Origin: Agrobacterium tumefaciens
GTDB lineage: Bacteria > Pseudomonadota > Alphaproteobacteria > Rhizobiales > Rhizobiaceae
Direction of reading: 5' to 3'
Assembly (NCBI RefSeq): GCF_013337285.1
Contig: NZ_SUPW01000007.1
Coordinates: 1-64,000, forward strand
Length of the DNA stretch: 64,000 bases
In this document: positions 35,912-39,781 of the stretch, piece after piece
How positions within the stretch are numbered: the first letter of the stretch is position 1
How the letters are laid out: the number at the start of each line of letters is the position of its first letter
Translations under genes and position numbers: made by a program
The notes under the pieces: model-generated
Databases searched by the model: none
Told to the model about the DNA's origin: nothing
What the model saw: the letters and a program-made list of their open reading frames with translations, nothing else

Positions 35912-36958
35912 TCAGAGCGTTGCGAGCAACCGGTTGGAGAGCGCGCCACCCGATGCGGCCTGCATGGAGACTTTGGTTTCCACTGCTTCGATGATCGTAT
36001 CGCTGAAATCAACATTGGTGAGTTCGAGGATATTCGATAACCCACCGGGCGAAAACACGTTCACCTCCAGTATCTTGTCGCCAACAATATCAAGCCCCAC
36101 GAGGAACATGCCGTCCTCCACCAGCTTCGGCCGCATCATTTCAGCCAGCGCCACGATGTCGTCCGTCACCTTCACCGCTTCCGCCGTGCCTTTGGCGTGG
36201 ATGTTGGAGCGAAGATCGCCTTTGGCCGGCACGCGACGAAGCGCTGCATATTGGCCGTCCCGCATCAGCGGCCGGCCATTCATCATGAAGAAGCGAATAT
36301 CGCCGTCCTTGGCGGCCGGCAGATAGGCCTGCGCGATCAGATAACCCTCAAGGCTGACCGCCTCGAAAATCTGGTTGAGGTTGGCTTCCTTGCTGGAGCC
36401 GATCTTGAAGACATTCTTGCCGCCGGAGCCCTGCAGCGGCTTGACGATGACGCCCTTGGGATGGGCATCGGCAAAGGCCCGGATTTCCTCGACATTACGC
36501 GAAATGATCGTGGTCGGCCGGACGATTTCGGGAAAGCTCTGGAAATAGAGCTTGTTCTGCGCCAGCGCCAGACCTTCCGGATCGTTCAGCACCACAACGC
36601 CGCGCTGTTCGGCAAGCCGCCCGAACAGAATGCCGGCATGCACGGCCCATGGCCGTGTCGTCTGGTCGAGCGACGGGTCGTTGCGCAGCATCAGCGCGTC
36701 GATTTCCTCGATATCCATGGTCCGCCGCTCCAGCGCCTTATCCTGAAGCGTGGTGTGGAATGTCTCGCCCTTCTTGATTTTCGCCTTCGGCAGTACGGTG
36801 GCATGGATGGTCAGGCTGTCATCCGACCGCAAGGTGAAGTCGCCGGGTGTGAGATAAACCACCTCATGGCCGCGATTGAGCGCCGCCCTGGCCAGCAGGC
36901 CGGTAGCGTAATTTGGTCCCTCGGTCTCGATGGAATTGACGAAAAATGCAATACGCAT
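35912..36958 (-). CDS. Glutathione synthetase-like ATP-grasp ligase
   Basis: This 348-residue ATP-grasp protein resembles prokaryotic glutathione synthetase: N-terminal domain (FFVNSIETEGPNYATG, LMLRNDPS), then the ATP-grasp fold with VIVKPLQGSGGKNVFKI, DIRFFMMNG and metal-binding VGLDIVGDKILEVNVFSPGG. Genuine gshB normally sits elsewhere in rhizobial genomes with other neighbours. It is the last gene of an operon with a QEGLA-type peptidase and an N-formylglutamate amidohydrolase-like protein, so it more likely ligates another carboxylate-amine pair. The ATG at 36958 has AGGAGGGGC in front and lies 10 bases after the QEGLA gene. Confidence 0.85.
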   Translation of the reverse strand: MRIAFFVNSIETEGPNYATGLLARAALNRGHEVVYLTPGDFTLRSDDSLTIHATVLPKAKIKKGETFHTTLQDKALERRTMDIEEIDALMLRNDPSLDQTTRPWAVHAGILFGRLAEQRGVVVLNDPEGLALAQNKLYFQSFPEIVRPTTIISRNVEEIRAFADAHPKGVIVKPLQGSGGKNVFKIGSSKEANLNQIFEAVSLEGYLIAQAYLPAAKDGDIRFFMMNGRPLMRDGQYAALRRVPAKGDLRSNIHAKGTAEAVKVTDDIVALAEMMRPKLVEDGMFLVGLDIVGDKILEVNVFSPGGLSNILELTNVDFSDTIIEAVETKVSMQAASGGALSNRLLATL

Positions 36959-36968
36959 GAAGCCCCTC

Positions 36969-38846
36969 CTATAATGTCGCCAGTTCGGCAATGGATAATC
37001 CCGCCCGTATTTTTTCGAGCCGCTCATTGGCCTTAGCGGGCAGTAAGAAAGCGGGCCTGACACCCGGCGGTCGCAAGAGACCGCGCAGGGCAAGCTCCTG
37101 CATGACAGGGAAATGGGCGGCAGCGATCTTGCCCATCCAGAATGGATCGAGCGCCCCGCCCCTGCGCAAATGCTCCAGCACCTCGGCCAGCCCACGCAGA
37201 TAAATCGCATCCTTCGATAGGCCGCCGCCGCGATAGATGCGCAGCACCATGTTGAAAGCGCCGGCCTCGTCGAAACCGTGATCGCGGGTCATGATGCGGA
37301 AGGTCTCAACGAAAGTCGCGCCATCAAGCATGGTGGCGCAGCCGACGACGCGCCCGGCAATCAGCCGCAGGCGCTCGCGCGTCATGCCACCGGCCAGATG
37401 TTCCGCCAGCACCGCCAGCCCCTCCTGCACGCCCTCATAACCGGAAAGGCCGGTGCGGAAGAGCCGCAGGCCCTGAGACGAGCCGTTGAAATAGGTGAGA
37501 AGATGCACGCCGATCTCATGCGACAGCAGTGCCTCGACGCGGCGCTGTTCCATGACGGTGTGGCGGGAAATCAAAAGCTTCTCGCCCGTCACCATCAGGC
37601 CGGGCGGCAGGTCGTCGCGGATTTCAACGCGGGCCTTGAATTCCGGTTCTTCCGCCAGATAGGTCTCGACCATCTCGCGCGATTTCCTGGCGACCGCGTA
37701 ACAATCGACCATGGCGATTTCGCCGCTTTCCTGGGCGCGTGGGCAGTCCTCAAGCACACGAAGCGCCAGCGTGAGAAGGGCGGGTTCGACTGCGCCATAG
37801 AGGGCGCGCGAAAAATCGGTGAAGGTTCGGTGATGCAGGTTCGCAAGCATCGTTAGCTGCAGATCGATCTCCTGCTGTTTCTCCCGGTAGAGATGATAGA
37901 GCACCGGGTCTTCCAGATGATCGAAGACGACGGAATAGAGCCTGCGTTTCTGCTCCTCGACATCAACGCCGAGCGGCCGATAAAGCAGGCGTGGCGCAAA
38001 TTGAAAGCTGCCATCGCGAAACTCCTCAAACGCCCGGCGGGCATTGATCGGTGTAACGGACAGAAGAAAATCGAAGGATGAAACGATCTCATCCACTGAG
38101 CGATCGGCGCGCCGGACGGCATCGACAAAGGCCTTACGGCCAAGCGCCCGGTGGCTGGTGACTTTCAGCGCATCCATGCCGGAAGCAAATGACGAGAAGG
38201 CTTGCAGACCAGCATCGAAAAGATCGGCGATCATCGTCTCACGCAGGCCGGGATAATCGGCGCCGGATTCCGGCTGTCGATAGATCGGCGCGAAGCGCAC
38301 ACTGATGCAGGGAAAATCCAGACCGGCATTCTGAAACCTGAGGATCGGATCGGCATCCAGCTCCGGCCGGGTGATGCGCGGCGTGCGAAACCGCACTTCG
38401 GCATCACAGACCGCCTTGATGAAGACCCGGCGGGCTTTCTGCGTTTCCGGTTCGGAGGTCGCTGAAACGGAAACCTCATAATGCGGCAGGAAGGGGGAAT
38501 CGTCGGCCAGCAGAATATCGTGTTCCAGCTCGCCTATATCGATTACCAAGAAAGCGCCGAAGCGCTGCCGCATGGCCATGCCAACAGCCTCGATCAGCGG
38601 CGCAGCCTCCTGAATGTTCGACGCTATGAGATAGGATGCGTGGGCGGCGGCGATATCCCGCGCAGCGAGGTCTTTCGTGCCGCCCGTCAGATGCAGGCAG
38701 AGGAACGGCAGCGGCCGGTCGATGTGCAGCCTGCCGTTTTTTCCGACATCCCGGCGGATAGCCTTGCCGGCCTCCAGGCAGGAGACGACATCATCCACCA
38801 GATCGGCGATGGGGGAAGGCTCGCTGCGGGCGGAGGAAACACTCAT
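36969..38846 (-). CDS. QEGLA-motif (DUF1704) protein, zinc peptidase-like
   Basis: This 625-residue protein has the family-naming QEGLA motif (EGVQEGLAVLAEH, about residues 472-484). The metal site HEIGVH (about 443-448) lies some 30 residues before it. HExxxH with a downstream Glu is the gluzincin-like arrangement of the DUF1704/KIAA0895 family, whose animal members are tubulin carboxypeptidases. The bacterial family is described as flavohemoglobin expression-modulating, but no mechanism is known to me. The start at 38846 overlaps the amidohydrolase stop as ATGA; a 6-codon longer form is possible. Placed between an amidohydrolase and an ATP-grasp ligase, it may trim or recycle a ligated peptide tail. 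Confidence 0.87.
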   Translation of the reverse strand: MSVSSARSEPSPIADLVDDVVSCLEAGKAIRRDVGKNGRLHIDRPLPFLCLHLTGGTKDLAARDIAAAHASYLIASNIQEAAPLIEAVGMAMRQRFGAFLVIDIGELEHDILLADDSPFLPHYEVSVSATSEPETQKARRVFIKAVCDAEVRFRTPRITRPELDADPILRFQNAGLDFPCISVRFAPIYRQPESGADYPGLRETMIADLFDAGLQAFSSFASGMDALKVTSHRALGRKAFVDAVRRADRSVDEIVSSFDFLLSVTPINARRAFEEFRDGSFQFAPRLLYRPLGVDVEEQKRRLYSVVFDHLEDPVLYHLYREKQQEIDLQLTMLANLHHRTFTDFSRALYGAVEPALLTLALRVLEDCPRAQESGEIAMVDCYAVARKSREMVETYLAEEPEFKARVEIRDDLPPGLMVTGEKLLISRHTVMEQRRVEALLSHEIGVHLLTYFNGSSQGLRLFRTGLSGYEGVQEGLAVLAEHLAGGMTRERLRLIAGRVVGCATMLDGATFVETFRIMTRDHGFDEAGAFNMVLRIYRGGGLSKDAIYLRGLAEVLEHLRRGGALDPFWMGKIAAAHFPVMQELALRGLLRPPGVRPAFLLPAKANERLEKIRAGLSIAELATL

Positions 38847-39673
38847 CGCCGCGACCCCAGGCATTTCTCAAGAACCGGCTGAAGGGCGGCGATCGTATCA
38901 CGGATATCCGAGATCACCCGTGTGTCCGGCTTTCCCGTCCATTCATCCATGAAGAATTTCTTGAACTCGATTGCAATCGCGCAGCCGTTTTCGGCAAATC
39001 TTTCGTGGATGAAGCGGGTCTGCTCCCCTTTGCCCTGAAACGCCACATTCTCTCGCACATCAAGGCGTCGACCACCAATGGTCGCTGACGCGAAATGATG
39101 ACCGACGGCGCTGACCACATCGCTCCAGCGGCTGCGATCCATGGAAAATGTACCGATATTGATATCGGGCGCTTCCACCTGCGCCGTCGCAGGCGCGGCA
39201 GCGCCCTGCCGGCGATGATTGTAGCTGTGCGTATCCAGCACCACGAAAGCTCCGTACCGCCGTTCCACCGCGGACAGAACCGTCTCCAGCATCGCATAAT
39301 AATCGGCGTGGAAGTGGAGCGATTGCCGAAGCGCTTCCTCTGTCGGCTCCTCGTTCCAGACCTCAAGCCCCCAGGATTGCTCGGGCTTCAGGTAGATCGC
39401 CTGATCGGCAGCGCGGTTGAGATCGATTTCGAAGCGAGAATGATGAACGACGAGACGATTAGTCAGCCCCGAAATCATCTCGCCGGTGAAGGGATCTTCC
39501 TCGCGCAGCCTCTGTTCGGCTGAAAGGGCCATGAACTCCGCCACCTCCGGGCGAATGAAATGGCCGTCATGAATGGCCGTGCCGACAACAGGGGAATTGC
39601 CGAAGTCGATCGACCAGAAACCGCTGTTTTTGTTGTGACCGTAATGTTCGCCGTCGCTATGTCTGGCTGCCAT
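38843..39673 (-). CDS. N-formylglutamate amidohydrolase-like protein
   Basis: This 276-residue protein is of the HutG/N-formylglutamate amidohydrolase fold. Metal and substrate motifs are visible as AIHDGHF near the start, SRFEIDLNR, DTHSYNHRR and EFKKFFMDEW. No histidine-degradation genes are nearby, so a role in the Hut pathway is doubtful. It is the first gene of the operon with the QEGLA and ATP-grasp genes. The ATG at 39673 follows GGGGAGG; a longer frame has no such site. It may hydrolyse an N-acyl-glutamate or gamma-glutamyl compound made by the ligase (inference). Confidence 0.85.
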   Translation of the reverse strand: MAARHSDGEHYGHNKNSGFWSIDFGNSPVVGTAIHDGHFIRPEVAEFMALSAEQRLREEDPFTGEMISGLTNRLVVHHSRFEIDLNRAADQAIYLKPEQSWGLEVWNEEPTEEALRQSLHFHADYYAMLETVLSAVERRYGAFVVLDTHSYNHRRQGAAAPATAQVEAPDINIGTFSMDRSRWSDVVSAVGHHFASATIGGRRLDVRENVAFQGKGEQTRFIHERFAENGCAIAIEFKKFFMDEWTGKPDTRVISDIRDTIAALQPVLEKCLGSRR

Positions 39674-39781
39674 GCTGCCTCCCCTGCATCGGGTGTAAAA
39701 CAACGCGACTTGCCCGTTTGTTCCGGGAAAAATTGCGCACGATACATTTGCCCCCTGTACAGACACCGCCCGAAAAACTGC

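Follow-up and report, generated by a model that had tools for sequence, protein, structure and literature searches.

Within a 64,000-nucleotide stretch of Agrobacterium tumefaciens DNA (contig NZ_SUPW01000007.1, positions 1 to 64,000; hereafter the window), we find a compact three-gene operon encoding an amidohydrolase, a metallopeptidase and an ATP-grasp ligase, called here genes A, B and C. Agrobacterium and scattered other bacteria carry this ligase and the two hydrolases nearly always side by side, and in Rhizobiales the pattern of bases upstream points to probable transcription from a general-stress (EcfG) promoter. Our tentative interpretation, held with rather less than even confidence, is that the three enzymes would constitute a stress-induced module that adds residues to, and trims them from, a glutathione-like or glutamate-ending peptide. 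An earlier note on this DNA had proposed a ligase/hydrolase pathway acting on a C-terminus; the analysis below gives good support to a coherent module apart from ordinary glutathione synthesis, while action on a C-terminus would follow from homology.

All three genes lie on the minus strand. Gene A (38843-39673) encodes an FGase-like amidohydrolase of 276 residues (Pfam FGase, PF05013), gene B (36969-38846) a protein of 625 residues with a decayed FGase-like N-terminal domain ahead of a MATCAP/QEGLA metallopeptidase domain (PF08014, TIGR02421), and gene C (35912-36958) a GshB-like ATP-grasp ligase of 348 residues belonging to the PRK12458 subfamily (NF009110). Genes A and B overlap in an ATGA (38846-38843), and B and C are separated by a gap of 10 bases (36968-36959); an in-frame ATG at 38864, 18 bases further upstream, offers an alternative start for B. 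The coordinates thus confirm the tight same-strand packing claimed in the earlier note, and the families it had named (amidohydrolase, QEGLA, glutathione-synthetase-like ATP-grasp) are those whose models the three proteins pass. Purifying selection acts on all three genes: compared with eight Agrobacterium-like relatives, dN/dS (the ratio of nonsynonymous to synonymous change) was 0.06-0.10 for C, 0.05-0.11 for B and, in the seven comparisons where it could be computed, 0.09-0.17 for A, with several dS values above 1.5 and hence near saturation.

Models of A, B and C were each run on one set of 398 Pseudomonadota genomes. Gene B occurs in 47 of these genomes, at 53 places, and C scores above the NF009110 cut-off at 16 places in 14 genomes. 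Comparison of coordinates shows that 15 of these 16 places adjoin B; at the sixteenth (G763), the contig stops 48 bases from the start of C, towards the expected position of B. In this search, NF009110 scores drop from 436 to 241 bits, at which point GshB proteins start. A profile of A applied at E 1e-15 found 16 places in 13 genomes, 11 of them within 2 kb of B or fused to it. Among named records, the order A-B-C on one strand is kept in all of the best 80 of 544 relatives of C, which were chosen by similarity to C and are not independent of each other, 21 being Agrobacterium-like (at least 79% identity). The module is also present on rhizobial megaplasmids with varying flanks, including pSymB of Sinorhizobium meliloti 1021 (NC_003078, 1122942-1126743). 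Linkage of A, B and C is therefore far beyond chance, and the co-conservation that had been proposed as a check on the operon holds in both sets. Weak ATP-grasp relatives of C (22-51 bits, of RimK-like size) were additionally seen on the opposite strand near QEGLA genes in three loci: one adjoins the module (L072), one is separated by a few hundred bases from a solitary B (L095) and one lies about 6 kb off (L097).

Gene B carries an intact metallopeptidase domain, scoring 322.7 bits against the MATCAP model PF08014 (cut-off 27) and 455.5 bits against the QEGLA model TIGR02421 (cut-off 338.65). Its zinc motif HEIGVH spans residues 443-448, and the QEGLA motif contains E475. Conservation of the zinc-site His and Glu residues had been named beforehand as a point on which the prediction could fail; H443, E444, H448 and E475 are invariant in an alignment of 27 B sequences and align with human MATCAP, which a profile of B and 26 relatives matches with an E-value of 1.5e-17 (7z5g). 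The HExxxH motif, the Glu of (Q/E)EG, KD-x-x-YL-x-G and GK of the animal enzymes MATCAP1/TMCP1 and TMCP2 all have counterparts in B, which differs from them in being bacterial, in having a dead FGase domain ahead of the peptidase and in its linkage to a ligase and an amidohydrolase. According to a study on these enzymes, TMCP proteins take off single C-terminal residues and glutamate chains, and changing E281 or E316 of TMCP1 strongly reduces activity (PMC10499314). We infer from this homology that B is a putative C-terminal carboxypeptidase. B used as a single sequence matched no solved structure, and a single-protein scan of viral contigs returned no relatives of B.

The N-terminal third of B is a decayed copy of the domain that forms A. 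Residues 17-225 align with the FGase domain of a fused protein type described below (hhalign probability 97, E 2.3e-11, 201 columns), and more weakly with A itself (probability 82, E 1e-5), against control values of 0.1 and 0.2 for the MATCAP part of B. The stretches corresponding to EEDP and SRFxIDxNR fall in alignment gaps, and the histidine of DxHS is absent in 12 of 12 aligned B proteins; homology to the fused FGase domain together with loss of its catalytic stretches is what points to decay.

In a tree of MATCAP domains, one clade holds all 20 rows labelled as linked, together with three short solitary rows, and a second clade consists of 31 solitary rows; L077, a solitary long B, was labelled linked here, and two fragments shorter than 350 residues were left out. 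Short solitary QEGLA proteins (TIGR02421) thus share the catalytic domain of B, but 31 of their 34 rows are phylogenetically separate from linked B. The three short proteins inside the linked clade (L087, L088, L089) have neither A nor C nearby, and they probably represent later loss of partner genes. Some QEGLA genes look broken: two adjacent frames are present in G082 (L015, L016), and a fragment with an inner stop in G875 (L117).

A second arrangement joins the two hydrolases in one polypeptide. Among 55 survey loci whose flanks were read, seven encode a single protein with an FGase domain and a MATCAP domain, and in all seven it stands beside C; one is from the window's taxonomic order (L068), one from its class (L069) and the others from other classes (L071-L075). 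The same fused gene lies beside C on two Photobacterium plasmids (2 of 2 records). The FGase motifs EEDP, SR-x5-NR and DxHS are all intact in five of the seven survey proteins, while L074 has EESP and L072 has lost the motifs. Together with the decayed domain of B, the fusion suggests that the two hydrolases share one substrate or one complex.

Gene A is a member of the FGase superfamily, with 96.3 bits against PF05013 (cut-off 28.9). It retains H35, EEDP with D60, SRFEIDLNR, DTHS with H149, and E236, as judged from columns invariant in ten A proteins and from comparison with the four other FGases of the genome. These motifs are common to A and to the HutG N-formylglutamate deformylase, but A scores only 25.3 bits against the HutG model TIGR02017, far below its cut-off of 278.75, and we rejected histidine degradation as its role in the window strain on account of this low score and the lack of neighbours for such a pathway. 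Despite the four other FGases, the A profile at 1e-15 recovered A alone in the window's genome, where six of nine candidates were scored. Neither the profile of A nor A as a single sequence matched a solved structure.

Gene C resembles glutathione synthetase GshB in its domains and catalytic core, but is separate from it by several measures. It contains both GSH-S Pfam domains, aligns to residues 27-315 of the E. coli protein (1gsa, E 1.5e-38) and shares the catalytic core of the TIGR01380 family; its score against that model is 201.1 bits, below the cut-off of 299.05, compared with 487.8 bits against its own family NF009110/PRK12458 (cut-off 408). Its ATP-grasp relative RimK, the S6-glutamate ligase, is more distant, with 36.4 bits against the NF007764 cut-off of 331. 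A single branch (support 100/98) divides C from GshB in a tree with 44 rows; among the C proteins, long stems (1.65 and 1.77 changes per column) lie between the trio type and the fused type. The following residue comparison uses 29 C proteins and 13 GshB proteins, a fourteenth, weaker GshB-like row (L210) being left out, with E. coli GshB numbering except for D10 and S21, which follow the L199 GshB. R86, K125, K160, D208, R210, R225, R233, N235, D273, E281 and N283 are conserved to at least 95% in both groups. Several positions invariant in 13 of 13 GshB proteins are changed in C, four of them as follows: near the N-terminus, Asp10 is Asn in 22 and Tyr in 7 of the 29 and Ser21 is Thr in 23; further on, E124 is Asn in 25 and T288 is Gly in all 29. 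The comparison with true GshB, which the earlier note had called for at the level of the ligase pocket, gives a divided answer: C belongs with GshB by its ATP-grasp catalytic residues and falls outside it by the invariant positions. This pattern fits a related but different substrate, and stays compatible with glutathione.

The genomic setting of C also sets it apart, as it adjoins B, and the window's genome encodes a canonical gshB elsewhere (C14:239339-240262, 404 bits) as well as a gshA-type gene. Whether the strain had another gshB had been seen as decisive for the earlier reading; since it does, C is not the sole glutathione synthetase, and with its score below the GshB cut-off we rejected ordinary glutathione synthesis as its role in this strain. 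A GshB over the cut-off besides C is present in 13 of 19 genomes with the trio or pair, the window's included. All 19 contain a gshA-type gene (PF04107 in 14, PF04262 in 5), which we tried and rejected as a sign of C's role: PF04107 is matched also in 19 of 22 genomes without C or GshB, hand-chosen for lacking any NF009110 match better than E 1e-24; some of these 19 carry a genus label that also occurs among genomes with C. The gene therefore gives no link between C and glutathione. The eukaryote-type synthetase PF03917 had no match in any genome searched, controls included, so that this negative carries no information.

Upstream of gene A we noticed the pattern GGAAC-N18-19-TT, which we take to be the consensus of RpoE2/EcfG general-stress promoters. 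The window's candidate (GGAAC-N19-TT, 39699-39724, minus strand) has its first base at 39724, 51 bases upstream of A. The pattern occurs within 250 bases before the estimated start of A in 69 of 80 loci (21 of 21 Agrobacterium-like and 48 of 59 others), compared with 40 of 506 control upstream regions from the same loci, which were chosen by a mechanical rule on frame length and include coding sequence. In the non-Agrobacterium loci, the antisense strand gives matches in 3 of 59, against the 48 in sense. Within 350 bases, and with the window included, 70 of 81 loci contain the pattern and 36 of 81 its stricter form GGAAC-N16-17-[CT]GTT, where shuffling gives on average 2.2 and 0.24, respectively. 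Five of six plasmid copies checked carry the pattern, two of the five being S. meliloti, and it is missing in Mesorhizobium AR07. RpoE2 is described as the general stress sigma factor in PMC3616915, the main text of which contains none of four guessed pSymB tag prefixes. On the plus strand of the window, two more strict matches (39782 and 41269) face the DJ-1/PfpI and DUF2391 genes; as they stand before DJ-1/PfpI, PCC and DUF2391, the trio may be surrounded by a small island of general-stress genes.

In part of the linked loci, a regulator of another kind accompanies the module. Of the 19 linked-type survey loci, eight (L069, L070, L073-L076, L078, L080) have a LysR-type gene no more than 2.5 kb upstream, divergent in seven, and in 8 of 8 its best NCBIfam model is HdfR, scored below cut-off (113-225 bits against 240). 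A profile built from these eight regulators, for which only the score gap below its own rows (382-469 bits) is informative, gives 334 bits to the gene beside the QEGLA fragment of L117 and 255 to another copy within L069; nothing else in the 55 survey or 80 rhizobial loci exceeds 78. No HdfR-like regulator was found in those 80 rhizobial loci, where the best other LysR protein scores 78 bits. HdfR of E. coli acts on glutamate synthase genes; a link to it would suit a glutamate theme, which we offer as a hint only.

Published expression data may concern the fused type of the module. In Photobacterium damselae under low salt, a GshB gene (A0J47_RS17020), read as glutathione synthetase by the authors, is given as 38.4-fold and a QEGLA gene (A0J47_RS17025) as 27.5-fold up (PMC10308900). 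The close tags and the two Photobacterium plasmids lead us to infer that these are C and fused B, in which case the low-salt 'GshB' of this species may belong to the module and not to glutathione synthesis.

How could the three proteins act together? In the add-and-trim cycle that we tentatively favour, C, as an ATP-grasp enzyme of the GshB lineage, would activate a carboxylate with ATP and join an amino acid or amine to it, its acceptor most likely being a gamma-glutamyl or glutamate-ending small peptide. B, as a MATCAP-type metallocarboxypeptidase, would take a C-terminal residue off the same kind of product, and A, as an FGase relative, would cleave another amide adjacent to glutamate. B would probably use its dead FGase-like domain to hold A or the substrate, as suggested by the live FGase domain fused to the peptidase in other lineages. 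Since C is nearest to GshB and the operon brings no gene for a target with it, a small glutathione-like peptide seems to us more likely than a protein tail.

Several observations weigh against this interpretation. The linkage is incomplete: 38 of the 53 B places have no over-cut-off C alongside, most being short solitary forms, and 5 of the 16 A-type places lack B; in three of these the contig breaks off no more than 543 bases away in the direction of B (G766:C273, G827, G981:C1), and two have no contig end in view (G709:C143, G790). A solitary long B occurs in L077, B and C without A nearby in L080, A at 1.4-2 kb from B in L076 and L079, and a fused B without C nearby in Vibrio sp. HDW18. As to the promoter, the stricter form is confined to the 36 of 81 loci given above, the pattern is missing in 11 of 80, and 10 of 21 Agrobacterium-like loci also match on the antisense strand, which may reflect a divergent promoter; non-rhizobial loci may be under the HdfR-like regulator instead. 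Finally, 6 of the 19 trio or pair genomes have no GshB-like protein over the GshB cut-off besides C, and in these C could serve glutathione synthesis.

This last observation leads to an alternative that we consider unlikely, in which C would be an additional glutathione synthetase specific to stress, or a producer of gamma-Glu-Cys-X, whose product is dismantled by B and A. The six genomes would be accounted for, as would the GshB catalytic and core residues kept in C and the gshA-type gene in every trio or pair genome; the 19 of 22 genomes that have PF04107 without C or GshB make this last point prove little, and a canonical GshB in the other 13 genomes, the altered GshB-invariant residues and the score of C below the GshB cut-off speak against it. 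The module might also be a pathway, biosynthetic or catabolic, of a small peptide metabolite such as an osmolyte or signal, built by C, with A and B serving in its maturation and not as erasers, and with a LysR-type sensor in several lineages. Operon packing, the small-molecule families involved, low-salt induction of the likely Photobacterium pair and the HdfR-like gene upstream of eight linked loci, mostly divergent, agree with such a route; we nevertheless judge it distinctly improbable, because the regulator was not found in the 80 rhizobial loci and the 60 largest neighbour clusters, read by eye and including many frames that are not genes, show no transporter or further enzyme in a fixed place.

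Very doubtful, in our estimation, is a protein-tail cycle like tubulin tyrosination or glutamylation, in which C writes a C-terminal residue that B and A erase. The catalytic domain of B shares ancestry with human MATCAP, which acts on tubulin as carboxypeptidase and deglutamylase, and the ATP-grasp relatives of C include RimK, named after a ribosomal protein, but C is nearer to GshB than to RimK and the operon encodes no candidate target protein. Its boldest form, a bacterial counterpart of the tubulin tail code with C as inducible writer and B and A as erasers in a reversible change of a protein C-terminus under stress, is a long shot.

Around the operon, eight flanking frames were scanned, of which six matched families (UDP-glucose dehydrogenase, epimerase, DJ-1/PfpI, PCC, DUF2391 and DAO oxidoreductase) and two matched none; no histidine-degradation or glutathione gene is among the eight, in agreement with what had been stated before. 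Among the named records listed, Rhizobium rhizogenes GBBC3284 comes nearest and Agrobacterium species next, with C 98% identical; very near records may be missing from this listing.

The families are known. For the operon, the FGase-MATCAP fusion, the decay of the domain in B and the promoter link, we found no description in the open-access full-text literature searched. There, no joint mention was found of formylglutamate amidohydrolase with ATP-grasp, nor of DUF1704 with ATP-grasp, the MATCAP papers not having been searched for ATP-grasp, and QEGLA and glutathione synthase appear together merely as listed genes. A 2009 survey of amidoligases may mention part of the operon, and may be the comparative-genomics work that the earlier note referred to. 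Public records label C as glutathione synthetase or synthase and B as a modulator of flavohemoglobin expression, a name that probably originated in studies of a Pseudomonas aeruginosa gene. For the present operon both labels look misleading, and the 'glutathione synthetase' title of NF009110/PRK12458 asserts a function that our tests do not support.

Should a bacterial tail code exist after all, the animal detyrosinase family may derive from its bacterial relatives. More generally, the module places the bacterial relatives of this newly discovered family of animal enzymes in a genetic context, with a ligase as partner and stress as the likely trigger, so that their substrate can be looked for directly.

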